Part shown: piece after piece, positions 1,641 to 20,091 of the stretch
Layout of the letters: each line of letters opens with the position of its first letter
Numbering within the stretch: position 1 is the stretch's first letter
Virus record (IMG/VR): IMGVR_UViG_3300031566_000482
Span: 1 to 20,091 of that record
Direction: 5' to 3' (one strand)
Length of the DNA stretch: 20,091 nt
Origin: a virus
Made by a program: the position numbers and the translations under genes
The notes under the pieces: model-generated
Database searches by the model: none
What the model saw: only the letters and a program-made list of their open reading frames with translations
What the model was told of the DNA's origin: nothing

Positions 1641-1651
1641 TCACTTCCCCT

Positions 1652-2101
1652 TCATTCGTCGGTGATAAACGGCCCGAGGTCGGCGAGGTCATTCGCCGAA
1701 AACGTCATCTTTCGATGCTCGGGCGTACCGTCCGCGTCCCCGAACATATCGAGAGGCAGCGGGTTGTAGTCGATCTCCACGACCTCTTTATTGAGTTCGC
1801 GAAGCTCCTTGTTCAGGTTATTCATTGCCACGCGATGCTCTTCAAGACGCGCCTTCCACGGCTCGTCCTCCTCGCCCGTGTTGCGCTCGAGCGGGGGAAT
1901 CATCATCCCGCCATCTGTCGATTGCCCGCCGAGGCCCTCGAAGAACTTGAGCTGCGTCTCCTCGAACGCCGCGACGATAGGCTTCAACTTCCCCAGCAAG
2001 CGACTGATGCGCCAGGCTGGTTTTTGCGGGAGCTTCTGCGCGCCCATGCTGCGCAGTGCTGTAAAGGCCAAGCGGACTTGCTCAACGGTTGCTTCAATCA
2101 C
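1652..2101 (-). CDS. Unassigned phage protein (149 aa)
   Basis: The start is GTG 2101, with AAGGAGAGG 6 bases before it inside the micro-ORF. The N-terminal half is helical (IEATVEQVRLAFTALRSMG, then AWRISRLLGKLKPIVAAFEETQLKFF), the middle is Gly/Met/Pro-rich and charged (MMIPPLERNTGEEDEPW), then another helix (HRVAMNNLNKELRELNKEVVEID), ending in FSANDLADLGPFITDE. This helix-linker-helix design with a closing SANDLxxLGPF segment is something I recall in other phages as a protein of unknown function. No membrane or signal segment. Its place between adhesin and coiled-coil protein suggests a tail or virion-associated role, not more. Confidence 0.78.
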   Translation of the reverse strand: MIEATVEQVRLAFTALRSMGAQKLPQKPAWRISRLLGKLKPIVAAFEETQLKFFEGLGGQSTDGGMMIPPLERNTGEEDEPWKARLEEHRVAMNNLNKELRELNKEVVEIDYNPLPLDMFGDADGTPEHRKMTFSANDLADLGPFITDE

Positions 2102-2192: not shown

Positions 2193-3137
2193 TTATAGGA
2201 ACCCAAAGTAGGTGATGACGATGATGCCCTGGGCGCCGTTGCCGCCGAAGGTGTTTGTTCCCGCCCCGCCGCCGCCGCCATAAAGAGCACCCGCCCTGCC
2301 TGGCGCGCTCCCGCTTGCCGCACCACCACCGCCTCCGCCGCCCGATCCATGAGTGGCCTCATCGAAATCAATCCCAGCCCCACCGTTCGCGGCGGGCGCA
2401 GCCCCGCCGGACATGAGCGCGCCACCACCACCCCCGCCGCCGGTAGTTCCGGCGGTCGCAGCTATCGGGCCAGCCCCCCCTGTGCCTCCAGTGCCGCCGC
2501 CCCCGCCGCCAGTTCTGGCGCCGCCATTGCCGCCGTGCGGTGGATTTGAGGGGTTGCCAGCTGCGCCGGCCGCACCGCCCCCGTTTCCGCCGCCCCCGCC
2601 GCCGGCGTAGTAGAGATTTGGTCCAGCGGTGTTGCCAGTGCCGCCCGCTCCGCCGTTGCCATTTGGGCCACCAGCACCACCACCACCACCGAAACCGGCC
2701 AATGTGAGGGTGGGTGGGGGTGGCCCAAAGTTGGTGTTTCCACCATTCCCGCCGCTGTACTTGGTGTCTCCAACCCCCGATGCTGCCTGGCCGCCGGTTG
2801 GGAACGTGCCGCCCTTTGCTACGATTGCGGAACTGTTGAAGGTGGTATCTCCGCCGACGCCAGAAGTTCCCCCGGCCCCGATCGCGTAGGGAATGCTGGC
2901 GCCTGGCGTCAGCGTGAGATTGGCCGATTTGGAATAGCCCCCGCCCCCGCCGGCATAATTGATACCAACGGCCACTCCTTGAGTAGATCCCCCGCCGATG
3001 CACTCGACCTTGTTGTTGGCGCTGTTCCAGTCTGCCGGCACGGTCCACGAGGTGCCGGAGGTGAGATAGACGTAGGTTGGGGTCGTGGACACTACGCGGC
3101 CCTTGCCACCGAACAGGACTTGCTGTGGTGCGCCCAT
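2193..3137 (-). CDS. Glycine-rich adhesin-like tail protein
   Basis: Translated from ATG 3137 the protein has 314 residues. I reject the ATG ten codons further upstream because 3137 overlaps the fibre stop as TGATG and the extra codons lie inside the fibre gene. After a short N-terminus (MGAPQQVLFGGKGRV) comes YVYLTSGTSWTVPADWNSAN, the opening of the phage glycine-rich domain that I place in the Gly_rich_2 type. About 250 residues then consist largely of GGGG runs with scattered Asn, Pro, Thr and aromatic residues, closing in GAQGIIVITYFGFL. By analogy with glycine-rich tip adhesins of other phages it may sit at the fibre end and contact the host; this is inference. Strong compositional bias causes many long open frames on the opposite strand. 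Confidence 0.8.
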   Translation of the reverse strand: MGAPQQVLFGGKGRVVSTTPTYVYLTSGTSWTVPADWNSANNKVECIGGGSTQGVAVGINYAGGGGGYSKSANLTLTPGASIPYAIGAGGTSGVGGDTTFNSSAIVAKGGTFPTGGQAASGVGDTKYSGGNGGNTNFGPPPPTLTLAGFGGGGGAGGPNGNGGAGGTGNTAGPNLYYAGGGGGGNGGGAAGAAGNPSNPPHGGNGGARTGGGGGGTGGTGGAGPIAATAGTTGGGGGGGALMSGGAAPAANGGAGIDFDEATHGSGGGGGGGAASGSAPGRAGALYGGGGGAGTNTFGGNGAQGIIVITYFGFL

Positions 3138-6100
3138 CAGGTGAGCCCTGTGCCGCTGATGATCCACGTCGTCGTGGTCATCTTCACCGCCGTCGCAACA
3201 CCATGCGCGGCAAGCGTTCTGCTTCCAGTGGTTCCCGCGCCAGCCAGATACATCGTGTCGGTCGTGATCGCGATGGTAATGACGCCGGCGGAGATCTGGT
3301 TGATGAACGTGATCGCGGTCCCGATCGGGAAGGCCACGCTCGCATTCGCGGGTATCGTCCAGATGCGCGCGGTCGTGTCGGCCGAGGGGTGGAAAATATG
3401 CTTGCCGGAATCAGCAAGGACAAGCTCGTAGGCCGCGCTCTTGCTGTTCTGCGGGATTTCCAAGAAGCCCACGCTGTTCGTGCCGTCTGCCGTGCAGCTC
3501 GACAGATTGCCGCCAGAATTCCAAGTGCCCGTTGTAATGGTCCCGACCGTGACCAAGTTTGAGCAAGTCGTGATCGACGATTGCGTCGCGTTTGTCACAG
3601 TCGCGGCCGAGCCCGAGGCGTCGCCCGTAAGGGCTCCAACGAACGTCGTCGCGGTGAGCGCGTTGGAACTCGCGTTGTAGGTCAGTCCCGCGTCGGAGCG
3701 CGCGCCCTGAGTGCCTGTCTGGCCGGTCGCGAGCAGGACCCATGTCGAGGTATCCGCGGCGGCATCGGTGACACCGACGTTCGTCGCATTTGTCGCATTC
3801 GTCGCCGTCGTGGCGGTTGTCGCGTTACCAGATAGCGCGCCGACAAACGTCGTCGTACTAAGCGCATTTGAGCTTGAGTTGTAGGTCAGACCGGCATCGG
3901 TTCTCGGTGATTCGCTTCCGGTCTGATTGATCGCCACCAAGGGCCAGGTCGTCGTGTCCGCCCCCGCATCGCTGACCGTAACCGTCCCGGCGTTGCCGCT
4001 GACGCTCGTCTGATCCCCGGTGTTGGAGCCGGTCGCCGTGCCGCCGCCGGTTGCAATAGTGCCGTCCGAGAGCGCCGTATTCAGTTGCGCTACCGTGAAG
4101 GACCCGAGAATCGCCGCGTTGCCGGTCGATGTGACGTGGCCGGTGAGGTTAGCGTTGGTCGTGACGTTGCCTGCGGTCAGGCTCGCCGCCGTACCGCTGA
4201 TGTTCGTGCCAACAAGGGAGGTCGGTGTTCCCGCAGCACCGTTAAACGTGATGAACGCGCCACCAATACCGACATTAACCGCGAGCGCCGCTGCAACCCC
4301 GGTCCCAAGACCAGATACGCCGCTCGAGATCGGCAAGCCCGTGCAGCTCGTCAGCACACCGCTCTGAGGCGTACCGAGGGCGGGCGTAACAAGCGCGGGA
4401 TTCGTCGCGCGCACGGGGGCGCCCGTGCCCGTCGCCGTGGTCCAAATCGGGAGCGCCGCGCCGCCGCCGACGAGGATCTGAGCCGTTGTTCCTTGCGCGA
4501 GAGATTGCTGCACCCCGGCTGCGGTTGTTCCGGTAGCCACCAGAGCGAAGGCTGTGGTCCCGGTCACTCGACCCGTGCCACCGTTCGCAATCGCGAGCGT
4601 CCCGGCAATGGTGATCGTGCCGGAGGCGGTGACTGGACCGCCGGACGTCGTCAGGCCGGTGGTCCCGCCAGACACGTCGATCGACGTGACCGTTCCCGAT
4701 CCCGGTAGGTTTTGGAATGTAGGTAGAGCCCCCGCCCCATTCGATGTCAGAACCTCGCCAGAAAGCCCAAGACCCGCAATCGACTGTTGCGCACCAGTGC
4801 CGGTTGTTCCACCGCAAAGCACGGCGTAGGCCGTGTGCGATGCCCGACCTGTTCCGCCGTTTGCAACAACCGCCGTGCCAGTGATGTTCGACGCAGTGCC
4901 AGAGATATTGCCGCTGACGTTCGCCCCGGTAATGCTCGTCAGGTTCGCACCAGATACAGCACCGAAGAGGCCGCTCCATGTGCCGCTGGTGATCGTTCCT
5001 ACGCTGGTCAGCGACGAAGTAACCACGGTCGCATTCAGCGCCGCGCCAGTAAGTGTTCCGGCCGCCGCCGTGACCGTGATGTTCGCGGTGCCGTTGAAGC
5101 TGACTCCGTTGATGTCGCGCGCCGTCTCTAGTGCTGTCGCCGTTCCGGCGTTCCCGCTGACCGTCGTTTGATCGCCCGTGTTGGTGCCGGTGATCGAGGC
5201 GTTGCCCGTCATGGTGAACGTGCGACTCGCATCGCCCAGCGTCACTGTCAGCGTCTTGTCGCTGACCGTCAGGTTCTCGGTGTTGGCGATCTTGAGATCG
5301 AACGCGCCAGTTCCAGTAGAGCGGACCCCGAGCGAGGTCAGCGCGTTGTGCTGCCCGCCCGTGATCGTCGGGGCCGCACTCATTACGAACGTCGTGCCGG
5401 TCCCTGTTTGCGAGGCAATCGAGGTTGCGTTTCCAGAACTGGTGATCGGGCCGGTCAGATTGGCGTTGGTGGTGACATTCCCGGCCGTCAGGTTGGCGGC
5501 CGTTCCGCTGATATTCGTGCCAACCAATGTCGTCGGAGTACCGAGGTCCGGCGACGTGAGCGCCGGCGATCCCGCGCGCACCGGAGACCCGGTCCCAGTT
5601 GCCGTTGTCCAGACTGGAAGTGCCGCCCCGCCCCCCACAAGGATTTGGGCCGTGGTGCCCTGCGTGAGCGTTTGCTGGACTCCGGCGGCGGTAGTGCCGG
5701 TGGCGACCAAGGAATACGCTGTGGTGCCCGTGATGCGCCCCGTGCCGCCGTTGGCGATAGGTAGCGTTCCAACAACCCCCGTGGTCAAGGGGAGCCCTGC
5801 GCAGCTCGTCAGCGTTCCACTTTGGGGCGTACCGAGAGCCGGGGTCACCAAAACTGGGTTGGTCGCAAAAACCAGAGCCCCGGTTCCGGTCTCGCCCGTG
5901 ACAGCGGTAGCCAGGTTTGCGCTAGATGGCGTGGCAAGGAAGGCCGCAACCCCTGACCCCAAGCCGCTGATTCCGGTGCTGACTGGCAAACTCGTCGCGT
6001 TCGTCAGGTCGATCGAGCTCGGAACACCTAGATTGGGGGTGGTCAGGGCCGGAGAAACCGCCCTGACCGGCGCACCAGTTCCAGTCGCCGTCGTCCAGAC

Positions 6101-6265
6101 AGCGGATAAAGTTGCTCCGCCGCCGACAAGGATCTGCCCTGTCGTCCCGGTCGAGAAGAAATCGAACGCAAGTTCGATCGCCGAAAACTCGGCGCGCTGA
6201 ACCGCCGACGAACCGGAGGAGCCTGTAGCTGGCGACCCTGTCGGGGTGTAGTAAGCGTTTGACAT
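3137..6265 (-). CDS. Tail fibre, repeat-rich
   Basis: This 1042-residue protein is a probable host-binding or head/tail fibre. The N-terminal 45 residues (MSNAYYTPTGSPATG...RAEFSAIELAFDFF) match a virion-attachment segment I know from phage fibres. The long shaft is Gly/Thr/Ala/Asn-rich with repeated motifs, including IANGGTGR, TAQILVGGGAALP, TPALGTPQSG and GTNISGTAA. Two shaft blocks of about 65 residues are near-identical in protein. The last 105 residues, from EIPQNSKSAAYELVLADSG to KMTTTTWIISGTGLT, match a common fibre C-terminal beta domain. No catalytic domain such as a depolymerase is visible. The ATG overlaps the nozzle stop (TAATG), with GGAGG 11 bases before. The stop overlaps the next start as TGATG. 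Confidence 0.85.
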   Translation of the reverse strand: MSNAYYTPTGSPATGSSGSSAVQRAEFSAIELAFDFFSTGTTGQILVGGGATLSAVWTTATGTGAPVRAVSPALTTPNLGVPSSIDLTNATSLPVSTGISGLGSGVAAFLATPSSANLATAVTGETGTGALVFATNPVLVTPALGTPQSGTLTSCAGLPLTTGVVGTLPIANGGTGRITGTTAYSLVATGTTAAGVQQTLTQGTTAQILVGGGAALPVWTTATGTGSPVRAGSPALTSPDLGTPTTLVGTNISGTAANLTAGNVTTNANLTGPITSSGNATSIASQTGTGTTFVMSAAPTITGGQHNALTSLGVRSTGTGAFDLKIANTENLTVSDKTLTVTLGDASRTFTMTGNASITGTNTGDQTTVSGNAGTATALETARDINGVSFNGTANITVTAAAGTLTGAALNATVVTSSLTSVGTITSGTWSGLFGAVSGANLTSITGANVSGNISGTASNITGTAVVANGGTGRASHTAYAVLCGGTTGTGAQQSIAGLGLSGEVLTSNGAGALPTFQNLPGSGTVTSIDVSGGTTGLTTSGGPVTASGTITIAGTLAIANGGTGRVTGTTAFALVATGTTAAGVQQSLAQGTTAQILVGGGAALPIWTTATGTGAPVRATNPALVTPALGTPQSGVLTSCTGLPISSGVSGLGTGVAAALAVNVGIGGAFITFNGAAGTPTSLVGTNISGTAASLTAGNVTTNANLTGHVTSTGNAAILGSFTVAQLNTALSDGTIATGGGTATGSNTGDQTSVSGNAGTVTVSDAGADTTTWPLVAINQTGSESPRTDAGLTYNSSSNALSTTTFVGALSGNATTATTATNATNATNVGVTDAAADTSTWVLLATGQTGTQGARSDAGLTYNASSNALTATTFVGALTGDASGSAATVTNATQSSITTCSNLVTVGTITTGTWNSGGNLSSCTADGTNSVGFLEIPQNSKSAAYELVLADSGKHIFHPSADTTARIWTIPANASVAFPIGTAITFINQISAGVITIAITTDTMYLAGAGTTGSRTLAAHGVATAVKMTTTTWIISGTGLT
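3631..3755 (-). repeat. Fibre shaft repeat of a second type, copy 2
   Basis: Encodes DTSTWVLLATGQTGT, then DAGLTYNASSNALTATTFVG. Close to the block at 3840-3961 in protein, more different in DNA. Confidence 0.8.
3840..3961 (-). repeat. Fibre shaft repeat of a second type, copy 1
   Basis: Encodes DTTTWPLVAINQTGS, then DAGLTYNSSSNALSTTTFVG. It pairs with the block at 3631-3755, about 69 codons further downstream. Confidence 0.8.
4409..4602 (-). repeat. Fibre shaft repeat, copy 2
   Basis: This block encodes AIANGGTGRVTGTTAFALVA and then GVQQSLAQGTTAQILVGGG, ending in WTTATGTGAPVRA. A weaker, partial relative (ANGGTGRASHTAYAVLCGG) is encoded near 4790-4865, and the QILVGGG...PVRA part recurs near 6070-6140. 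Confidence 0.85.
5574..5767 (-). repeat. Fibre shaft repeat, copy 1
   Basis: This block encodes PIANGGTGRITGTTAYSLVA and then GVQQTLTQGTTAQILVGGG, ending in WTTATGTGSPVRA. It is nearly identical in protein to the block at 4409-4602, while the DNA differs at many third codon positions. Confidence 0.85.
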
Positions 6266-9490: not shown

Positions 9491-10008
9491 TACGCTTCCG
9501 ATAGAACACCCTTGAGCCAGTCCTTGCCGCGAGGGTTCGCATCATTGACCACCGTGAACGGAAACTTGTTCGCAGTATGCGGGATTTGCTTAAAGCCCAT
9601 CCGGTTCGGGAGTTCCTTCTGCGAAAACGTCGTGCGCTTCGCGCGCGCCAGAACCTCGACGAACTTGCGCTTCACGGTCTGCTCTTTGCCGCGCAAGAAA
9701 TACTGCGAGATCCCGTCATTCCAAACTGCGGGAATGGGGTCATCGAGCGGGTTGTTGCTGTCGTGAACGAGAACGGTGATCTCCTCTTCCATGAAAGCGA
9801 GCATTGCGGCCTTGTCGCCGTTGATGGGGCGATCCACCACTTCGATTCTCGCCGGGTCCAGTGATTGCCTTGCCGGTCCCTCCGACTTCATAACGCGAGG
9901 GTGATCCTGCCCGACCGTCTCGGCAGCCGAGTCCACGTCATTACGACGCGAACGGACTGGCCGTGTCTTCTTTTGAGCTAACGGTTTCGAGTGCTTCAAA
10001 CGGGGCAT
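9490..10008 (-). CDS. Unassigned phage protein (172 aa), basic N-terminus
   Basis: I do not recognise a named family. Residues 1-25 are strongly basic (KHSKPLAQKKTRPVRSRR), followed by a linker and a folded-looking part with DKAAMLAFMEEEITVLVHD, DGISQYFLRGKEQTVKRKF and a C-terminal NKFPFTVVNDANPRGKDW. The stretch MEEEITVLVHDSNNP recalls proteins I have seen between capsid and tail genes of N4-gp56-type phages, but I know no function. No membrane segment is seen. The ATG has AAGGAG at good spacing. The stop overlaps the next start as TAATG. A minor virion or assembly protein is the likeliest reading from position. Confidence 0.8.
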   Translation of the reverse strand: MPRLKHSKPLAQKKTRPVRSRRNDVDSAAETVGQDHPRVMKSEGPARQSLDPARIEVVDRPINGDKAAMLAFMEEEITVLVHDSNNPLDDPIPAVWNDGISQYFLRGKEQTVKRKFVEVLARAKRTTFSQKELPNRMGFKQIPHTANKFPFTVVNDANPRGKDWLKGVLSEA

Positions 10009-10035
10009 GCTGTTCTCCTTGATGAAAGGGCCCTA

Positions 10036-10049
10036 GGCCCCGAAGGGCC
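10036..10049 (-). other. UUCG-loop hairpin in spacer
   Basis: On the minus strand GGCCC-TTCG-GGGCC forms a 5-bp stem with a C(UUCG)G loop, between the 170- and 172-residue genes. A competing pairing of the flanking GGGCCC repeats is possible. Only three T residues follow shortly after, so termination would be weak. Confidence 0.65.
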
Positions 10050-10060
10050 CGGGGGTATGT

Positions 10061-10080
10061 GGGTCGCGGTTAGCTGACCC
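10061..10080 (-). other. Weak hairpin enclosing the stop of the 170-aa gene
   Basis: The arms GGGTC and GACCC enclose a 10-base loop that contains the TAA stop (10070-10072). Five base pairs with a 10-base loop is marginal on its own. Confidence 0.35.
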
Positions 10081-10582
10081 GATAGGCTACGAACGTGTCG
10101 GCCGCGGTCCACCGGAACCGGAAGGTTCCAGTAGGCGCTCGCGACGTCGCGATGTCGGCCACAACGCCAACGATCGCATCGCCGACGATTGTTACGCCGG
10201 TATCCGCCGTCAACGTGATGAGGTCGGTCGTGGCGCCAAGGTTGATGATCGTCAGATCGAATGAATCATTGAGTGACGCTTTCGGCCTGAGAGCGAGTAG
10301 CGCATCTTCCAACAGCGCCCCGGTCAGGACGGTATAGGCCGCCGCTGCCGCTGGCGTTGCAACAAGAACGCCGCCAAGCATCTGCGCGGCCGTCAGAGTC
10401 ACCGTGCCGGTTGACGTTTGCGGCGTCGGCATCGGTGAGAACAACTCGCCCGTCTCGCGGTAATAGCCGAGATCCATCGTGCTGATGGTGCCGTCGTCCT
10501 TCACTACATCGACAAGCGCGTTCTTCGCAATCCGCAGCACTTTGCGGACGATGACGTTGGTGAAATCTCTCCAAAGGTTCAT
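10070..10582 (-). CDS. Probable virion protein with beta-sandwich-like C-terminus (170 aa)
   Basis: Residues 1-50 form a basic N-terminus (RDFTNVIVRKVLRIAKNALV) and a short linker (YYRETGELFSP). From about residue 60 the protein has the pattern LTAAQMLGGVL...YTVLTGALLEDALLAL...DLTIINLGATTDLITLTAD...GTFRFRWTAADTFVAYRV. I recall this pattern as a recurrent beta domain (LTAAQLLGG...) in phage structural proteins, with moderate certainty. A head decoration or fibre-base role is inferred from position after the capsid and the 157-residue gene. The ATG has AAGGAG 8 bases upstream. The stop codon lies in the loop of a weak hairpin (GGGTC...GACCC, 10061-10080). Confidence 0.75.
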   Translation of the reverse strand: MNLWRDFTNVIVRKVLRIAKNALVDVVKDDGTISTMDLGYYRETGELFSPMPTPQTSTGTVTLTAAQMLGGVLVATPAAAAAYTVLTGALLEDALLALRPKASLNDSFDLTIINLGATTDLITLTADTGVTIVGDAIVGVVADIATSRAPTGTFRFRWTAADTFVAYRVS

Positions 10583-11233: not shown

Positions 11234-12261
11234 TCGGTCACGCCGGCTTCGATAAGAGCCATCCAGCCCTGATTGGTGATTTTCACCGCCGACCAGAACG
11301 AAGAGCCCACGTAGCCGCGCTGCCCCAACGGGTCCGACTTGTCCTTCTGCGTGTGCGGAAGGTGGACCAGATTGAAGCTCGACAGACCGCGAAGAGCCAC
11401 GTCGAACGCCGCCTCTTCCCCCATCACGATGTAGGGATAGACGTCCACGTTCGCCGCCCCAACGGACACAAGGCCCGTAGCGCCCACCGCTGCACCACCG
11501 GCCAGGTACGGCGCCAGTTCCGGGCTCGTAATGAACCGGAACTCTTCGCACGACCCCAGCTCGTTCTCGTTGATCGGAGAACGATTGGCGTACTTCGACA
11601 CAGGGACGAAGTTCGGCAGATCACGGATGTCGGGTTCGGCATCCGTATGGACGAACACGCAATACCCGCCTTCAATGGCGGATGTATCGTAGTTCGGCGA
11701 AGGCGAGAGAATCCTCGTCTTCTTCTTGGCGTGGTTCGACTTCAGCGTCTTCACAGACCGGCGGATGATGTTCAGGCTGATCGCCAGATCCACCGTCGCG
11801 CGCGTTGTTCCGCCCGCGAAAATGACGTTGGTGCAGGACTTGAGTTCGCCGTAGCGAATCATTTCCCGAACCAAGCCCATCCGCTCCCCGACCTGTTCCT
11901 TCATTTCCTCGGGGATGTCGTCCTCGTACAGTTCGGCGGTCTTGTCGCTGTAGCTGTAGAGGCACCCGTATTGCTGAAGGGTGACTTGCACGTCGACAGG
12001 CGTCATCGTGTCCGCCGTCGGCGTCACGCCCTCTGCGAGGATGTGATTGACGGCGATCGCGGCGGGCCGGTTCTCTGTGTCTTGATCGACTGCGGTGGCC
12101 CCGAACGGAAGCCAGCGCCGATAGATGACGTTGTCTCCCTTGTTCTTGGGGTGTGGCTTCATCTTGCAGCCAAGGCTGAGTACCTCGACGTGCATCGCAT
12201 GCGCCAAGGTTTCACCCTTGACTTTGTTAATGCGACCTGCGGAAGTTGCGTAGTTCTGCAT
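11227..12261 (-). CDS. Major capsid protein, N4-gp56 family
   Basis: This 344-residue protein is the probable shell subunit with the HK97-type fold. It is recognised as the N4-gp56 family by the run from AEGVTPTADTMTPVDVQVTL through QYGCLYSYSDKTAELYEDD, followed by the long spine-helix-like stretch EEMKEQVGERMGLVREMI, and the later INENELGSCEEFRFITSPEL. Length is normal for this family. The ATG is 9 bases after the scaffold stop, with AGAGG at good spacing. The stop TAA sits in a short hairpin (CGTCT-AAGA-AGACG) and a stronger hairpin follows in the spacer, which suggests a stabilised or punctuated message for a highly expressed protein. No N-terminal delta-domain is evident, which fits the separate scaffold gene. 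Confidence 0.93.
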   Translation of the reverse strand: MQNYATSAGRINKVKGETLAHAMHVEVLSLGCKMKPHPKNKGDNVIYRRWLPFGATAVDQDTENRPAAIAVNHILAEGVTPTADTMTPVDVQVTLQQYGCLYSYSDKTAELYEDDIPEEMKEQVGERMGLVREMIRYGELKSCTNVIFAGGTTRATVDLAISLNIIRRSVKTLKSNHAKKKTRILSPSPNYDTSAIEGGYCVFVHTDAEPDIRDLPNFVPVSKYANRSPINENELGSCEEFRFITSPELAPYLAGGAAVGATGLVSVGAANVDVYPYIVMGEEAAFDVALRGLSSFNLVHLPHTQKDKSDPLGQRGYVGSSFWSAVKITNQGWMALIEAGVTDV

Positions 12262-12270
12262 TAAATGCCT

Positions 12271-13248
12271 CTATTTTTTGGACCCCGCAACGGCGTTGAA
12301 TCCGGCTGCGAAGGCCTGTTCATCACTGATCGCGGAAGCGCCCGCTTGCTGCGCACCCCCTACTGGGGTGGTAGCGCGCTCTAACCTCTCCGACCGCTTG
12401 TTGCGGTTCTGTGCGCCCGTAACGACTTTCGACTGATGCCCCTTAAAGGCGTCGATCAACGTGATCGCGTCTCTGGCGCGCTCGCTATCAGCGAGCGCCT
12501 TCATGTCCGTGGATTGGCCCGAGAGCCAACCGTCGAACTCCTTAGACCTGATCGCAGATTCCCAGTCCCAATCACCATATTTCGAGTCGATGCGCGAAAA
12601 CTCTCGCGCCCGAGCATGAGATTGCTGAATGGCTGGGGTGACTTGATCGACTACCTGCTTGGTCAGAGCGCCCGTATCCACGGCCCGTCCTCCGGCCGAA
12701 ATGCGCGCGTTCATCGCTTGCAGTTCCTTCTGCACGGGCCCGGCAAAATCAGGGAAGTCCTCCATCAAGGTCTTCCACGATTCCGGGTCCGCAAGGGCAG
12801 CGGTGATTTGCTTGTCGGTGGGAGCATCGCCCCCAGTCCTCGCGGCGGCCGCTTTCGCGCTCGCCATCGAGGTATCCAACTGGCTCTTCAATCCGCCCAA
12901 GCTACCGAAGATGCGCCGGACCTCTCCGGGCAGCTTTCCAAGCTCGTCTAACCGCTCGCGCACGACTGCGGGGACGCCTTCCCAAGGGTCCGGCTGCGCG
13001 GCGGTGGCATCTACCACGGCTGCGCCAGCATCGGTCGCGCTCGCCGCATCATCTGCGGTAAGGGCGGCCTGGTCGGCCTTCTTGGCTGCGTCCGCGTCTG
13101 CGTCCGGCTCACTGCCGGAGACTCGGTTAAACCCGTCAGCAAAAGCTGCCTCGTTCTCTACATCCTGCTTGGCAAGCTCTTCCGCGGTCGGCTCGGTCAC
13201 TTCTTCGGTTGCTACTACTGTTTTGTCGTCTGTCGTTGTGGTTTCCAC
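12271..13248 (-). CDS. Scaffold protein, putative
   Basis: This 325-residue protein is assigned as the internal scaffold that guides procapsid assembly, from its position directly before the major capsid gene and its composition. The N-terminal 100 residues are acidic, rich in Ala and Asp and probably disordered. The middle is helical (VRERLDELGKLPGEVRRIFGSLGGL, then DTSMASAKAAAA). The C-terminal third is basic (RNKRSERLERA), as expected for a scaffold tail contacting capsid. The start is GTG with GAGG 9 bases upstream. A short motif, AFADGFNRVSG near residues 35-45, recurs as AFAAGFNAVAG at 312-322 near the C-terminus. No protease motif is visible, so scaffold removal would need another factor or exit without cleavage. 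Confidence 0.78.
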   Translation of the reverse strand: METTTTDDKTVVATEEVTEPTAEELAKQDVENEAAFADGFNRVSGSEPDADADAAKKADQAALTADDAASATDAGAAVVDATAAQPDPWEGVPAVVRERLDELGKLPGEVRRIFGSLGGLKSQLDTSMASAKAAAARTGGDAPTDKQITAALADPESWKTLMEDFPDFAGPVQKELQAMNARISAGGRAVDTGALTKQVVDQVTPAIQQSHARAREFSRIDSKYGDWDWESAIRSKEFDGWLSGQSTDMKALADSERARDAITLIDAFKGHQSKVVTGAQNRNKRSERLERATTPVGGAQQAGASAISDEQAFAAGFNAVAGSKK

Positions 13249-13265
13249 AGTTCCGCCTCACAAAC

Positions 13266-13287
13266 AAAAAAGCCACCCAAAGGTGGC
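13266..13287 (-). terminator. Intrinsic terminator between portal block and scaffold
   Basis: On the minus strand GCCACC-TTTG-GGTGGC is followed directly by six T residues, a textbook rho-independent terminator. It lies between the 73-residue gene and the scaffold, whose ribosome site begins only a few bases after the T-tract. No promoter fits between it and the scaffold start, so it probably acts as a partial terminator or attenuator. Confidence 0.85.
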
Positions 13288-13303
13288 CGGTAAGCGAAGG
13301 TCT

Positions 13304-13319
13304 ATCGGCTTACGCCGAT
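13304..13319 (-). other. Hairpin with GTAA loop holding a stop codon
   Basis: On the minus strand the sequence ATCGGC-GTAA-GCCGAT forms a perfect 6-bp stem with a GNRA-type tetraloop. The TAA stop of the 73-residue gene is inside the loop. It has no T-tract of its own and lies 16 bases before the intrinsic terminator at 13266-13287. Confidence 0.6.
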
Positions 13320-13743: not shown

Positions 13744-16086
13744 TCACTGTTGGTAAGACTCGCCTGGCGCTGCCCGCCCCGCCGGTTCGCTGGGCGGCTT
13801 GAGCGCGAGTTTCGTGCGATTTCCTTCCGTCGATAGGTCTCTCTGAGCCCTGACCTTCATCACGACCTCCGCAAGGCTTGTGCGCAGCGTGTCGGTTGAA
13901 ATATCCCGCTCGTCTCTGGACGTCAGGTTGTGAACCAGAAGCTCGAGCTCTCGATCCAGCGCGTTGTCGTTTTCCTCCCAATCGCGGCGGCGCTGATTCT
14001 CTTGTTCGTCGAAACCCCGCTCTGCGCCAGCGAGTTTTTCCTCGAGCATTCGCGAGGCATCTTCGGACGCCTTGCGGATTTCCGCCACTTGCAGCCTCGG
14101 GTCCTGCGGGCCATCCTTCATGTTCTGGACGATCTTCTTCCACTCTTCGTCGTCGTAGTCGAAGCGTGACGGATCGAAATGCTGGCTTATGAGCATTTCG
14201 TTGAACCACTTCTTCGGGTCCTTCCCGAAGCGCGGATCGAGTACAAGTCTGCCCATGTCCACGATTTGCTGATCCTGAATGTCGCGCTCCACAAGCGCGC
14301 TCGATCCTAGAGCGTTCAGGACGAAGTCGCCCTTTTCATCGTCCTCGCCGTGCATGAGCAACCAGTCGTAATAGCGCCCGACGTGCGGCTCGGTCATCCT
14401 GTCGTCGAACAGCCGCGCCATGCGCCGCAAAACGGTAGAGGCGTTGGTGTTTAGTATCTGAGTTTGGCCCAGCGTGTTGGGCTGCCTGTTGCCCCTCGTA
14501 CTCGGTCCCATCTGCCCTTGAAGCAGCATCGGTAGCCCGGTCACGTCCTCGGCGAGCTTCAGCCCGAACTGGATAATCTGCATCAGCTCGTTGACAAGCA
14601 TGTCCACCTTGACGACGCCGATCGCGTAGCGCGCGTCCGTCATTTCGTCCGCGTCTTCGGCAATGTAGTAAATCTTGCGCGGGCCCAGCCCGGCCACACC
14701 GTTCGCTGGGTAGACCACGCCTTGCCTGAAAACGATCATCGGCCCGGCCGCGAGCCCGGCGTTGTCCATCAGGTTCCGGGTCGCCGCGACGACGATGCGC
14801 TGCGGCGTCCTGATCTGTCGGGAAACCCCGATGCCCGTCCAGTGGCCGGAGCGGCGCTGCCACACCATTACGTCGTATGGATAGTCGCCCGTCTCGAGGG
14901 GGTTCTCGGCTACCTTGATGACCCGGTTGTTGACCATCACGATCATCACCGGCATGAGCATCGTCTCGTCTTCGCACTTGCAGCCCGCCGCCATAACGTC
15001 TTCCCGGTCGGCGACGCCGTGCATGTACCAGATTTCAAATCGGTTCTTCTGGTCCTCGTCCGTCACCAGCAACTCAGGGGTCGGCTTGAATTCAGCTACC
15101 GCTCTGGTGGGCCCCTCGGTCAGGCAAGCGTCGATCTGCTCCTTGATGTACGCCTTTTGCTCTCCGAGGTCCTTCAGTTGCTTCTTGGTGACGTAGTCGC
15201 GTTCCCAAATATAGCTTCCATTGTGGATGTTCTCGCCACACGCGGCGTCTGGAAACAGGTTCCACGGGTCCACCCATTTCGAGACCGGCTTGATCTCCTT
15301 TTGTAAGACGAGTTCGCCGTCGATGAACTTCTTCTTGCGCCGCTGGATTGGTATTGGGCCCTTCAGGACCCCGGTCCCGATGCGCGCAGCGTCCTCGATT
15401 ACCTGCCGGACGTGCGAAGTCCAGCGGCACTCCTTGAACCAGTCATCAATGCGCTTCTGAGCCTTGGCCGCCTTTTCCTTGGCCGCCTCGATTTTCACAC
15501 TCGCGTCTTCGCTGACTTTCGATAGCTGCTGCTTCGCGAGCCCCGGCTGCCCCGGGTTCTGCGCCGCGGCGGTCTGCACCATGCCGGCGGGGTACTGCCC
15601 TTTCGCCAGCTTCTCCTGATCGGGGATCGGCGTGGCCTTCAGGTCGAAGGGCCTGGCGCCGCCAGTCGGGAGAAGCATGTCGGATATTCGCGCTGCGGCC
15701 GCATCGCAGTAGGGCCGCGTGATGTTCGGGAACACGACGCTTTGCGTTGTGCCGTCCCTCTTCTTCTCTGACTCGGCTTGGCCGACGGGTTTGCGCCTCC
15801 ACGTCGTCCTGAATTCGTGCCGGTTTGAATCGTCGACGCCGTGGTAGAACTCCTCGTCTTCCAGCCATTCGTCTTCAATACCTGACGCCTGGCGAGCGCG
15901 AATCGCCTCTGATCGAGTCTTCGCCAAACTCTCGCCGAAAGCGTTCAGCCGCATCATCATCCGCTCGCGCTCTTCATCGCTCATGGCTGGCGGCTCTTCA
16001 CCCTCGACAGCTCCCTCGCCGGGCACTTGGGCGGACCCGTCTTCTTCCTCGCCCGGCTTTTTCATGTATGAAGAGATTGTTTCCAT
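13744..16086 (-). CDS. Portal protein
   Basis: This 780-residue protein would form the dodecameric ring at the head vertex through which DNA passes and to which the adaptor attaches. It is assigned from size (P22-like portals are about 700-750 residues), its position directly after the large terminase, and recognisable stretches such as DEEFYHGVDD near the N-terminus, the central EDVTGLPMLLQGQMG, and RRMARLFDDRMTEPHVGRYYDWLL. Residues 1-40 are acidic and probably disordered. About residues 155-210 are rich in Lys, Ala and Gln (KIEAAKEKAAKAQKRIDDW) and look helical. The last roughly 120 residues are highly charged and probably coiled coil, which would fit a barrel-like C-terminus. The ATG directly follows the terL stop and has GGGA just upstream. 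The length is slightly above family norm. Confidence 0.88.
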   Translation of the reverse strand: METISSYMKKPGEEEDGSAQVPGEGAVEGEEPPAMSDEERERMMMRLNAFGESLAKTRSEAIRARQASGIEDEWLEDEEFYHGVDDSNRHEFRTTWRRKPVGQAESEKKRDGTTQSVVFPNITRPYCDAAAARISDMLLPTGGARPFDLKATPIPDQEKLAKGQYPAGMVQTAAAQNPGQPGLAKQQLSKVSEDASVKIEAAKEKAAKAQKRIDDWFKECRWTSHVRQVIEDAARIGTGVLKGPIPIQRRKKKFIDGELVLQKEIKPVSKWVDPWNLFPDAACGENIHNGSYIWERDYVTKKQLKDLGEQKAYIKEQIDACLTEGPTRAVAEFKPTPELLVTDEDQKNRFEIWYMHGVADREDVMAAGCKCEDETMLMPVMIVMVNNRVIKVAENPLETGDYPYDVMVWQRRSGHWTGIGVSRQIRTPQRIVVAATRNLMDNAGLAAGPMIVFRQGVVYPANGVAGLGPRKIYYIAEDADEMTDARYAIGVVKVDMLVNELMQIIQFGLKLAEDVTGLPMLLQGQMGPSTRGNRQPNTLGQTQILNTNASTVLRRMARLFDDRMTEPHVGRYYDWLLMHGEDDEKGDFVLNALGSSALVERDIQDQQIVDMGRLVLDPRFGKDPKKWFNEMLISQHFDPSRFDYDDEEWKKIVQNMKDGPQDPRLQVAEIRKASEDASRMLEEKLAGAERGFDEQENQRRRDWEENDNALDRELELLVHNLTSRDERDISTDTLRTSLAEVVMKVRAQRDLSTEGNRTKLALKPPSEPAGRAAPGESYQQ

Positions 16087-17379
16087 TTACATTCCCATGC
16101 CAGCGTCGAGAACTTGGTGTTCGACAGCCCTCGTAGGCGCGCGCGAACCAACCGTCTCGATCTTGTCAACGATCATTGCCAGTCCGCCGAAGGCGTCAGC
16201 GCCGTGTCTGTAGGGCGTTTTCATTGGTCGTCCGGGTTCCTGTGTCGTGACTGGCACCGCCCGTTGGAAGCGTTTCAAGCACTCCATCAGGACGTGGCAA
16301 GTCTCGGAATTCATGTAGACCCTCGGGAACATCGCGCGGGCCTGCGTGATCGGGTACTCAATACTTGGCGGTTGCTTGATTAGCTTCGGGCGAATCTTCA
16401 GGAACACCTTCAACTGATCCCGTGCGCTGATGCCCTGCCCGCCCTGCGTCTTGTGGCCGCCGTCGTGCGGCAGCCAGTGCTGGCCGTAGCTGTACGGCTT
16501 TTCCTTCAGAATCTTCGCCCACTCGTCATAGCGCAGGAACGACTCCTCCTCGTAGTCGATGATGCGAACTTCAGAGGAAATGCGCTGCGCGAAGATGACC
16601 GCGGTCTGGTCGTTCCAGCCGAGATCCCAAATCGTATCCACCGGAAGGCGTGGATCGTAGGGGACATCCTTGAAACGGCCCTGCTGGATCATTGCGCGCA
16701 CTTCCTTGGAGTAGATCGCGCCTGGCACCGATGACCGGGGGTTGCCTTCCCAAACGTGGTCGTATTCCTCTTCGTCCGTCGCCTTCAGGTGCAGCCGTTC
16801 CTTTTCCAGCACTCCCGGGAAATACGGGTTGTCTTTCCACGTTACCCGCTGCACCCACGCATCCGGCGGGCTGCGCAGCACGAACCGCGTGTACGTGTCG
16901 TCGGTGTCGAGCTCCGGGTTGAAGCTGACCCAAATCTCCGAGTCAGGAGTTCGGATCGTCGGTATCAGGATGCCCCAGCTTCGCTTTGAAACCGTGTGGG
17001 CTTCCTCAACCCAGCAAATGTTGATGCCCTCGTAGGACTTCACGTTCTGGATGCTCAACGTGCGCAAGCCAACGAAGGTGAATTCCGATCCGTTCACGCC
17101 CTTGATAGAGTGTTCCTGCACTACGAAGAAGTCCACGATCCCCATTTCGATGATCTGGTCCTTCAGCAGTTGGTGGACCGACTCCGCAATGGTCTTCATC
17201 ACTTCCCGGGCGCACAGGATGCGCAAGGGGTCCTGCATCGCTTTAAGCAGCAAGGCCCTCGCAAAGGCCCACGACTTCCCGCCTCCACGCCCCCCGTGGG
17301 AGACCTTGTAGCGGTGCGGCTCGAATAACGGCTTCCAGACCCTCGGGAACTTCGCATCGACTGCGATTTGCTTGGTCAT
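16087..17379 (-). CDS. terL: Terminase large subunit (ATPase and nuclease)
   Basis: This 430-residue protein is the motor that translocates DNA into the prohead through the portal and cuts the concatemer. The N-terminal ATPase shows Walker A GGRGGGKS (residues 29-36), Walker B ending in WVEEA (residues 123-127, catalytic Glu in the E125/E126 pair), and the coupling motif WVSFNP (residues 150-155). The C-terminal RNase H-like nuclease shows the three expected metal-binding aspartates in D252 (IWDLGWND), D306 (LPHDGG) and D395 (HGADAF). Order and length match the Sf6 gp2/PBSX-type Terminase_3 family. No catalytic residue appears missing. The start overlaps the small-subunit stop (ATGA) and has only a weak ribosome site, so coupling is likely. 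The stop TAA abuts the portal ATG. Confidence 0.96.
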   Translation of the reverse strand: MTKQIAVDAKFPRVWKPLFEPHRYKVSHGGRGGGKSWAFARALLLKAMQDPLRILCAREVMKTIAESVHQLLKDQIIEMGIVDFFVVQEHSIKGVNGSEFTFVGLRTLSIQNVKSYEGINICWVEEAHTVSKRSWGILIPTIRTPDSEIWVSFNPELDTDDTYTRFVLRSPPDAWVQRVTWKDNPYFPGVLEKERLHLKATDEEEYDHVWEGNPRSSVPGAIYSKEVRAMIQQGRFKDVPYDPRLPVDTIWDLGWNDQTAVIFAQRISSEVRIIDYEEESFLRYDEWAKILKEKPYSYGQHWLPHDGGHKTQGGQGISARDQLKVFLKIRPKLIKQPPSIEYPITQARAMFPRVYMNSETCHVLMECLKRFQRAVPVTTQEPGRPMKTPYRHGADAFGGLAMIVDKIETVGSRAPTRAVEHQVLDAGMGM

Positions 17380-17861
17380 ACGAATTCGATCTTCGCTGAG
17401 ACCTGAACAGGCCCGCCATCCTTCCCAACGTGTTCAAGCCGATCGCCGTACTTACCCGGGAGGAGCTTGGATGCCACCCACTTGCGCGCGTCTACCCGGT
17501 TCCTCTGGTGCTGCACCGCCGCGCTGTCGACGCGCAGAACTTCCACGTCCCGGCCGCCGACCGACTTAATATCCATCACCATCACCGGGTCCTCGTCGGC
17601 AATCGAAATGATCTCGTTGGCGTACATTTCCGCCTGCGCCTGGCGCGCGATCGCGTACAGATCGCGAAACTCGTCGTGCTTATGAAGCCATCGCATCACC
17701 ATCGACCTCGATGGCATTCCAGCGAACTTCAGGATCCCCACCAACGATTCCCCCCCGGCAATGCGATTGCAAATCTTCAACGTGACCGCGCGCGAGTAGT
17801 ACGAGAGCTGCCCCCTCCCGCGCTTTTGCGCCTTAATCTTCGCTGCCTTGCTGTACGTCAT
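17376..17861 (-). CDS. terS: Terminase small subunit
   Basis: This 161-residue protein is the probable DNA-recognition subunit of the packaging motor, which binds the pac or cos region and passes the concatemer to the large subunit. The N-terminus is basic (KIKAQKRGRGQ), followed by a helical region with a likely helix-turn-helix around residues 30-60 (ICNRIAGGESLVGILKFAG...RWLHKHDEF). The C-terminal part contains RVDARKWVASKLLPGKYGDR, a signature I associate with Sf6-gp1-like small terminases. Length is normal for that family. The start follows TAA directly and has AAAGGA about 10 bases upstream. The stop overlaps the large-subunit start as ATGA. Adjacent order with the large subunit strongly supports the call. 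The recognition site cannot be identified from sequence alone. Confidence 0.88.
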   Translation of the reverse strand: MTYSKAAKIKAQKRGRGQLSYYSRAVTLKICNRIAGGESLVGILKFAGMPSRSMVMRWLHKHDEFRDLYAIARQAQAEMYANEIISIADEDPVMVMDIKSVGGRDVEVLRVDSAAVQHQRNRVDARKWVASKLLPGKYGDRLEHVGKDGGPVQVSAKIEFV

Positions 17862-17987
17862 TTACCGTCGTCCTTTTCGTCTGATTCTTTGAATCCACTC
17901 GGAAACCACACCTTTAATCCCGCCCCATACCGCAGAGGCGAAATGCTTCCCGCCGAAGTGGTTTGCCGCAAAATGCTTGAGGGCCAT
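17862..17987 (-). CDS. 41-residue basic microprotein with (K/N)HF pentad repeats
   Basis: The start ATG (17987-17985) overlaps the upstream stop as TGATG, and the stop TAA (17862-17864) directly abuts the ATG of the terminase small subunit. This leaves no unused bases and implies translational coupling on both sides. The protein starts MALKHFAANHFGGKHF: three (K/N)HF triplets at exact five-residue spacing (residues 4-6, 9-11, 14-16). A Gly/Val/Trp-containing segment follows (residues 17-32), then an Arg/Lys tail (residues 34-41). I recall short phage proteins with similar xHFxx repeats next to the C-terminal module seen in the upstream gene, but no function for them. DNA, RNA or membrane contact would fit the basic, aromatic composition but is speculation. 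Confidence 0.7.
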   Translation of the reverse strand: MALKHFAANHFGGKHFASAVWGGIKGVVSEWIQRIRRKGRR

Positions 17988-20091
17988 CAGCCCGCATCGA
18001 GCGTGATGGCGGTGCGGTTGCCCTGCGCGTCATTGACGGAAATAACCCGGTCTTTCGAGTCCGCCACATCGCGGAAGCGTTCCGTCCCGGTCCCGCCACC
18101 AGTGACCTTGCCAGCAGAGACCGCCAGCAGCAGCCGCAAAGCCTGACGAATGTCGTAGCTCCCCTCGATCACCGAGAGCAACGTATTGACGTTAGTGACC
18201 TCGGTGTCCTTGGACAGATTGAACGACATGATTGCTTGCGCCACCGCCGTCACAGAGCCGGAGATCGCGTACTCGACAGACAGGTGGTTAGTCGAAGGCA
18301 AGTTCGTGATCGCCGCAATATCCAGAGCGCCCGTGTAGTGTCCGCCGCCGATGTCGGTCAGTGTGCGAGTCTTCTGCACCCAGCCGGCCGCCTTGAACGT
18401 GTCGTCGTCGAAATCTAGGTAATCGGTCCCGTTGCCAATCCGAACCTTCGCCGTCACCGTCAGCCCCGGGACTCCCCCGCCGTTGTCCACGGCGAGGAAA
18501 AGGGGCGCCGCGGTGTCGTCTCGATTCACTATCACCTGATACCCCGTCGTTGATATGGTGGCGCCAAGAACCGGAACCGTTCCGTCTTGCGTGTCGGTCG
18601 CCGCAAGGATCTCCGCAACCGCCGCCGCGAAATCGACTTGTGCGCCGACGGTGTCCAGAGCCGTAAGGCTTTCCGCAACGCTGGCCGCGTAATCCACGGT
18701 CGCATCGACCGTGTCCACGACGGTAAGCGTCTCGGCCACCGCCGCGTCGGCAGAGATCAGCCCGTCTACCGTGTCCGCCGCGCCGAGAACTTCAGCAACG
18801 GCCGCCACGAAGTTCCCGACCGCAACCTGCGAATCAACGGCCGAGAGCGTTTCAGCAACGGCCCCGGCGTAGACGACAGTTGCCGACACGGTATCGGCCG
18901 CAGACAGAGTTTCCGCAACCACCACGTTGAGCGCCCCAGCAACGGTAGCGTTTACCGTGTCCGCAGCGGCGAGCGTTTCCGCCACCGTCGCGGCAAAATC
19001 GACTTGCGCCGTGACGGTTTCCACTGGGGTCAGCGTCTCAGCCATTGCCGCCGAGAAATCGACCTGTGCGCTGACGGTGTCTGCCGCCGCCAAAACCTCA
19101 ACCACAGATATGCCAGCGGCGTAATCTACGCTCGCACTCGGCGTGTCCACCGCAGACAGGGTTTCCGCCACGGCTGCCGTGTGTACCACCGCCGCCGATT
19201 GCGAATCGGTGGCCGTCAGCGTCTCAACTACAGCTATGCCGCCGATGTAATCTGCGCCTGCATTCGGCGTATCAACCGCCGACAGTGTCTCGGCAACGGC
19301 TGCCACGAAATCAACTTGCGCGCCTTCGGTGTCCGCAGCCGCCAGCGTCTCCGCCACGGTCGGGGCGAAATCAACCTGCGCGCTTACCGTGTCTGCGGCC
19401 GCAAGCGTCTCGGCCTGGGCAGCGTTCAACGTGATCGTCGAGTCCTGCGTGTCGACAGCAGTCAGCGTTTCAGCAACGTCCCTCGGCGTGGTTCTCAGGG
19501 CGCTCTGCGTATCGGCAGCCGAAAGCGTCTCAGCTACGGTCGCGACAAAATCAACCTGCGCAGTTACGGTATCTGCGCCCGCCAGTATTTCAGCGACAGA
19601 CGCCGAGAAATCGACCTGTGCGCTAACCGTGTCCGCCGCCGCGAGAGTCTCCGCAACGTCTCGCGGCGTCGTTCTGAGGCCGGTCTGCGTGTCCGTCGCG
19701 CTCAACGTCTCTGCGGTGGTAGCGACGAAATCGACCTGCGCAGTTTCCGTATCAGCAGCAGCCAACGTCTCTGCCTGGGCCGCAACGAAATCAACTTGCG
19801 CCGTCTCCGTGTCAGCAGCCGCCAACGTCTCAGCCTGCGCGGCCGAGAAATCAACCTGTGCGCTCACCGTGTCCGCAGCAGTGACGGTCTCGACCCGCGC
19901 ACCGTCAAACGACGTACCGCCAACAGAAACCGTTACCTGCGGCGTCTGGGTGATCGTGTCCGCTACGTTCCCGTCATACAGCACCCGGAAGTCGTACTGG
20001 ACTTCGCGCGAGTTGACCTTCGCCTCGACCGACCAGACATCCTCGCGGTTGCCGTTGTTGGCAACGTCAGTATTCGTGGTCGATGGGTTCT
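17987..20091 (-). CDS. Repeat-rich phage structural protein, 5' end outside window
   Basis: The frame is open from the stop TGA (17987-17989) to the right edge, giving about 700 visible residues. A GTG at 19984 could be taken as a start, but the 35 codons before it are open and read like protein (for example EDVWSVEAKVNSREVQYDF), so the true start lies beyond the window. Counting from that GTG, residues 29-470 are about 22 copies of a 20-residue unit of the type AETLAAADTVSAQVDF. Residues 471-665 look like one or two globular beta domains and end in a segment resembling a C-terminal module I recall from other phage proteins (AGKVTGGGTGTERF...VNDAQGNRTAITLD). The protein is acidic and rich in Ala, Thr, Val and Asp, with no obvious signal peptide in the visible part. 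A fibre, decoration or other virion surface role is inferred from repeats and position only. It ends in a TGATG overlap with the next gene. Confidence 0.82.
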   Translation of the reverse strand, partial: NPSTTNTDVANNGNREDVWSVEAKVNSREVQYDFRVLYDGNVADTITQTPQVTVSVGGTSFDGARVETVTAADTVSAQVDFSAAQAETLAAADTETAQVDFVAAQAETLAAADTETAQVDFVATTAETLSATDTQTGLRTTPRDVAETLAAADTVSAQVDFSASVAEILAGADTVTAQVDFVATVAETLSAADTQSALRTTPRDVAETLTAVDTQDSTITLNAAQAETLAAADTVSAQVDFAPTVAETLAAADTEGAQVDFVAAVAETLSAVDTPNAGADYIGGIAVVETLTATDSQSAAVVHTAAVAETLSAVDTPSASVDYAAGISVVEVLAAADTVSAQVDFSAAMAETLTPVETVTAQVDFAATVAETLAAADTVNATVAGALNVVVAETLSAADTVSATVVYAGAVAETLSAVDSQVAVGNFVAAVAEVLGAADTVDGLISADAAVAETLTVVDTVDATVDYAASVAESLTALDTVGAQVDFAAAVAEILAATDTQDGTVPVLGATISTTGYQVIVNRDDTAAPLFLAVDNGGGVPGLTVTAKVRIGNGTDYLDFDDDTFKAAGWVQKTRTLTDIGGGHYTGALDIAAITNLPSTNHLSVEYAISGSVTAVAQAIMSFNLSKDTEVTNVNTLLSVIEGSYDIRQALRLLLAVSAGKVTGGGTGTERFRDVADSKDRVISVNDAQGNRTAITLDAG
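18575..19900 (-). repeat. Tandem 60-bp (20-residue) in-frame coding repeats, about 22 copies
   Basis: Each unit starts with A-E-T/I/V-L, then roughly A-A-D-T, then often AQVDF. Most units are exactly 20 codons; a few are 19, 22 or 23. Units differ in sequence and codons, so this is a diverged array and not a recent expansion. Higher-order order is visible: two three-unit blocks each end in an LRTTPRDV unit, and two units carry a three-residue insertion (DYIGGIAVV, DYAAGISVV). Confidence 0.9.

Follow-up and report, generated by a model that had tools for sequence, protein, structure and literature searches.

The repeat-protein gene and its domains

The window, i.e. the whole stretch of DNA analysed here, is the entire virus record IMGVR_UViG_3300031566_000482, consisting of 20,091 bases and derived from an uncultured, apparently short-tailed virus of bacteria. 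It is occupied at its end by a minus-strand gene encoding a repeat protein with a computed pI of 4.05 (17987..20089; 700 codons and the stop); the start of the protein is missing, since the reading frame, still open at 20089, runs in from beyond the contig end. This gene is followed by the adjoining gene for the terminase small subunit (17376..17861; PF20901, E 4.8e-34; phrog_1482), the terminase large subunit (16087..17379; PF04466, E 2.4e-38) and the portal protein (13744..16086; PF23899, E 4.1e-12; phrog_332), all of them on the minus strand. A separate tail-fibre gene (3137-6265; phrog_1833) is located at the end of the tail genes.

Only the end of the N-terminal domain is preserved (fragment residues 1-63; 19901..20089, minus strand; VQYDFRVLYDG...DTITQTPQVTVSVGG), this flank exhibiting 37% identity over 57 residues and 39% over 72 residues to its counterparts in the viral contigs L089 and L063, respectively. 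The array that follows (18563..19900, minus strand) contains 22 in-frame units with the consensus (A/T/S)VAETL(A/T/S)A(A/V)DT(V/Q)(S/T)AQVDFxA, in agreement with the preliminary description of a repeat protein of about 22 copies that share AETLxAxDT, often carry AQVDF and are of near-constant 20-residue length. The residues Glu4 (22/22), Leu6 (21/22), Asp10 (21/22, the remaining one being Glu) and Thr/Ser11 (22/22) thus recur at a regular 20-residue spacing, AQVDF is present in 10 units, and 19 of the 22 units are exactly 20 residues long. The remaining three—units 11 (19235..19300), 13 (19109..19174) and 16 (18923..18988), all on the minus strand—have 22 residues, so that the insertion described previously as one of three residues shared by two units is in fact one of two residues found in three units. 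A motif pattern spanning three units gave 12 matches in the window and none in 100 dinucleotide shuffles; position 18 of the unit, lying outside that pattern, is F/Y in 15 of the 22 units. The long plus-strand open reading frames facing the array seem to be a side effect of the repeat on the opposite strand.

The array is succeeded by a middle beta domain of 118 residues (513-630; 18200..18553, minus strand) with the motif YLDFDDDTFKxxGW, found at 57 viral loci and sharing 59% identity with that of L089. Its AlphaFold model has mean pLDDT values of about 53-80 in blocks of 10 residues. Pfam and PHROGs offered no family name for it, and for the N-terminal domain of BppU (baseplate upper protein), considered as a possible identity of the middle domain, the same libraries listed no family in either the window protein or 21 middle-domain relatives, a profile miss of this kind being compatible with remote homology. 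Weak structural neighbours of the domain (the phage lambda tail tip and a phage VP1 capsid entry; Z about 4.3) were set aside.

The protein is closed by a C-terminal module of 67 residues (634-700; 17990..18190, minus strand) with the consensus ExGxTxRQALRLxxAxLAGKxSGxGTxTxTFRDxADxKDRIxATVDANGNRTAxTxD, detected in at least 120 viral contigs and only once among 50,697 phage records. In every distinct match tabulated it is found 0-6 residues from the protein C-terminus, the module being constant there and its partners variable, and for residues 641-700 AlphaFold yielded a fairly confident fold (block mean pLDDT 78-91). There is no name for the module in Pfam or PHROGs, the matches to PHROG being weak and scattered only; its profile (A5) retrieved no PDB sequence up to E 1, a result that leaves room for remote homology. 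Judged from its sequence, the GNRT module is a family, defined here and lacking an existing name, to which the window protein belongs. It should be noted that in about ten viruses the gene with the C-terminal module is immediately followed by a small aromatic-rich open reading frame, the product of which begins like M..YFxxxYFxxxYF (L089:5543-5938, L159:6189-6647, L191:6189-6554, L196:6189-6590, L204:6186-6695; also in L221 and L222).

Exchange, age and relatives of the array

The frame formed by these domains has been found with different arrays. L089 has the N-terminal flank, the middle domain and the C-terminal module in common with the window, its array being of 22-residue units with a different sequence, and in L002 the middle domain is preceded by units of 20 and 22 residues that form a GVEGTSAVGSV array. 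A profile comparison of the three arrays found no mutual similarity, and homology of the window array to the other two was therefore rejected. Since the flanks are kept in L089 and L002 and the arrays are mutually dissimilar, the array acts as a cassette within a conserved frame; on these comparisons, the repeat stretch is swapped between relatives.

Concerning the history of the units themselves, the preliminary description had them growing by duplication of multi-unit blocks, two consecutive blocks of three ending in LRTTPRDV. The LRTTPR ends are indeed present in units 4 (19661..19720) and 7 (19481..19540; both on the minus strand), but the duplication blocks found no support: similarity of unit DNA at lag 3 was no higher than in shuffled unit order (p 0.22), and the same test revealed no enrichment at any spacing of 1-6 units. 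The mean pairwise DNA identity between units is 56%, and the pooled pS and pN across the array are 0.69, i.e. near saturation, and 0.34, respectively; units 2 and 3, identical as protein, still differ at 10 synonymous positions. The protein pattern of the units is therefore under constraint while their synonymous sites are near saturated, which indicates that the units are old and that their sequence has been kept by selection at the protein level. Recent slippage or amplification is thereby ruled out, and, the units being so old, a history of block duplication is not readable from them. LRT-type units occur at the matching unit position in L064, L056 and L080 (5 of 230 units), so that units 4 and 7 may represent an old subtype and not a local copy. 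A copy event may be shared by units 11 and 13 only, a pair with 82% DNA identity and the same 2-residue insertion.

Relatives of the array were searched for with a degenerate three-unit DNA pattern, which found 40 stretches in viral DNA, a few of them chance matches (e.g. L069); real arrays of the same motif are present in about 20 distinct proteins from other uncultured viruses. Across 19 other loci, F/Y occupies position 18 in 66% of 97 units, against a background of 5%. The comparison of the window array profile with other viral arrays (E 5e-12, with shuffled controls scoring far lower), made on units selected by motif, supports similarity of the window array to other viral E-x-L-x3-D-(T/S) arrays. 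The whole array used as a protein query against viral contigs confirmed zero relatives, and tblastn of the repeat against catalogued phages gave no matches, an outcome made uninformative by the low-complexity filter. Matches of low E-value to the repeat regions in Pfam, PHROG and NCBIfam (RAD24_helical, Pilosulin, ClfA etc.) were considered composition artefacts. The domains accompanying the array vary among viruses; in L060, for example, a glycine-rich domain and Laminin_G_3 are fused to the repeat. L082 encodes, with one gene between them, two proteins bearing the viral repeat (9665-10084 and 11920-13314); they are 140 and 465 residues long, and both have MFG-type N-termini.

Contigs of Thaumarchaeota genomes (L226, L237 and L241) likewise code for large proteins in which 20-residue units form (S/T)LSESLPLSDT arrays similar to the viral repeat. 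They share with it the unit length and the motif E-x-L-x3-D-(S/T), but they are products of cellular genes, probably surface proteins, and have different flanking domains. As the similarity was motif-selected, it may reflect convergence.

Gene neighbourhood in related viruses

In most sampled viruses the family gene is located among terminase, portal, capsid or tail-tube genes. It comes after terminase and portal in L089 (the portal belonging to phrog_332, as in the window) and in L191, precedes a small gene and the portal in L063, has the portal downstream in L171, lies between portal and capsid in MW202621.1, adjoins the head protease/capsid in L002 and is separated from the capsid in L163 and L206, where the latter is two genes beyond. 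The C-terminal-module genes of L150 and L177 are positioned just ahead of the tail-tube gene, the repeat-protein gene of L071 stands beside the gene for the major tail protein (tail tube), and the repeat proteins of L082 are encoded in the tail-fibre region. In L209 and L212 the terminase follows after about 1-1.6 kb, matching the order in the window; in most other terminase-positive records it is roughly 4-17 kb upstream, and in the 224-kb record G059 it is far off. With most sampled relatives situated among packaging, head, connector and tail-tube genes, the place just upstream of the terminase, previously regarded as uncommon for a fibre, is a normal one for this family.

The terminase family PF04466 was not matched in any of 25 records, mostly repeat-carrying. 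Neither the C-terminal module nor the middle domain was detected in 23 terminase-related records, many of which are fragments; a control search with the C-terminal module recovered it where it is known to occur, with matches in five of eight records. The repeat-protein gene is accordingly accessory and not part of the lineage core. It is worth mentioning that L063 encodes, adjoining its portal gene, a collagen-like GPQGPQGPKGEKGDP protein (714-1925, minus strand) in addition to the window-like repeat protein, and that L013, a terminase relative of the window, has upstream of its terminase a gene (3-1754) for a 584-residue protein with GAVGSVTGAVGSV repeats, i.e. a different repeat in a place comparable to that of the window array.

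Predicted fold and possible role

The structure prediction proposed earlier as a check gave a solenoid for the array, not disorder throughout: AlphaFold modelled a beta-solenoid with three short strands per unit. The preliminary suggestion of a beta-solenoid thus stands as far as the near-strict 20-residue beta repeat and its modelled shape are concerned; against it are the mean pLDDT of 57 and pTM of 0.41, a Foldseek search with no significant match, and a full-length model that is weaker and of different solenoid geometry. Superposition of the array model on beta-helices with VIA reached a Z of 9.4 over about 200 of 203 residues, a value that, as the tool warns, may reflect a common arrangement only; the overlapping proteins are AlgE4, AlyF, the HK620 tailspike and the phage 7-7-1 fibre. 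PDB profile matches of the array to DpHF7 and DpHF18 (E 0.005-0.014), which we take to be designed helical filaments, were judged repeat artefacts.

As to the fold, the presence in the virion, the anchoring end and the function, we infer tentatively that the protein is an accessory structural component of the virion, a reading that is plausible while falling short of probable. The 22-unit array would fold into a long, acidic stalk, a beta-solenoid in which each 20-residue turn supplies three short strands and units with two additional residues are tolerated, and the middle beta domain together with the C-terminal module would attach it to the particle. The C-terminus would be anchored at the head or neck, with the stalk and the N-terminal domain pointing outward, as in T4 Hoc, and the filament would provide a weak, non-essential adhesin or contact with the environment rather than the main receptor-binding fibre. 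The C-terminus is the most likely anchor because the module found there is constant, the parts preceding it are variable and the gene is associated with those of portal, scaffold, capsid and connector. The reading is favoured, too, by the modelled strands and beta-helix overlap of the array, by the dissimilar arrays within the shared frame of L089 and L002, by the domains fused to the repeat in L060, by the protein-level constraint on the units and by the computed pI. Such constancy of the C-terminus is no proof of anchoring, since conserved C-termini are found in fibres, too, where they serve folding or trimerisation, and the repeat proteins in the tail-fibre region of L082 and by the tail-tube gene of L071 speak against a place at the head or neck.

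The comparison with T4 Hoc, suggested by the constant C-terminus, the variable N-terminal part, the acidic composition and the head-gene neighbourhood, deserves some detail. In Hoc, the C-terminal domain is constant, the beta domains nearer the N-terminus are variable and the pI is acidic (PMC10385173), and the family of the window is similarly arranged and accessory, the window protein being acidic as well. The shaft of Hoc, however, consists of Ig-like domains, whereas that of the window protein is an array of 20-residue repeats; no Pfam Ig domain was found in the latter, its N-terminal domain being cut off by the contig end. There was no sequence match between the two, and, unlike the C-terminal domain of Hoc, which binds capsid hexamers, the window module is only a putative capsid binder.

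A strong rival, albeit a somewhat unlikely one, is a trimeric tail fibre or tail-associated receptor-binding protein, with an N-terminal anchor in the missing part, the array as a shaft and a C-terminal folding or trimerisation cap, for which the constant module could serve. Fibres typically have long shafts of beta repeats, the beta-helix of the array model overlaps the HK620 tailspike and the long tail fibre of phage 7-7-1—which is itself trimeric and beta-helical in its middle part (PMC12796354)—and the module genes of L150 and L177 immediately precede tail-tube genes. On the other hand, that likeness is without a significant Foldseek match, the window already has its separate fibre gene, away from the repeat-protein gene, the genes of the relatives are grouped with those for packaging and the head, and the variable end is the N-terminus, the reverse of usual tail fibres.

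The association with portal, scaffold and capsid genes would also be explained by a role inside the particle, such as that of a scaffold-like, pilot or ejection protein, but this is very improbable: a beta-rich repeat pattern is unsuited to an essential internal part, as are variable N-terminal partners and the absence of the gene from related records, and the repeat of L060 is fused to adhesin-type domains. A cell-surface or secreted protein outside the virion, the product of an accessory gene that had inserted next to the terminase, would fit the patchy distribution and the arrays of the large Thaumarchaeota proteins; it is made quite improbable by the repeated association with structural genes across unrelated viruses.

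Virion surface filaments and fibres are of a known kind; the C-terminal module, the regular 20-residue stalk and the array exchange are unnamed in the libraries searched and were not found in the literature searched, where no paper describing a 20-residue phage repeat was encountered either. The idea of a Hoc-like surface filament could be widened to uncultured tailed viruses in general, whose filaments, fixed at head or neck by one constant C-terminal anchor and provided with 20/22-residue beta-solenoid stalks that can be interchanged, would make up a broad, unnamed class, a parallel to Hoc but independent of it, although so wide a generalization is rather unlikely. If right, the surface-filament reading would give a name to a common unannotated particle component of environmental viruses, recognizable by its constant end, its swappable repeat stalks and its head and packaging gene neighbours; annotators could use it to mark over a hundred genes now called 'hypothetical', and the contact of particles with surfaces prior to tail-fibre binding could be examined.

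As a minor observation, the window encodes another protein with repeated segments (39-1640, minus strand), 533 residues long, Gln/Ala-rich and without a clear family, the segments of which are of the TGQIMPAE type and perhaps form a coiled coil.
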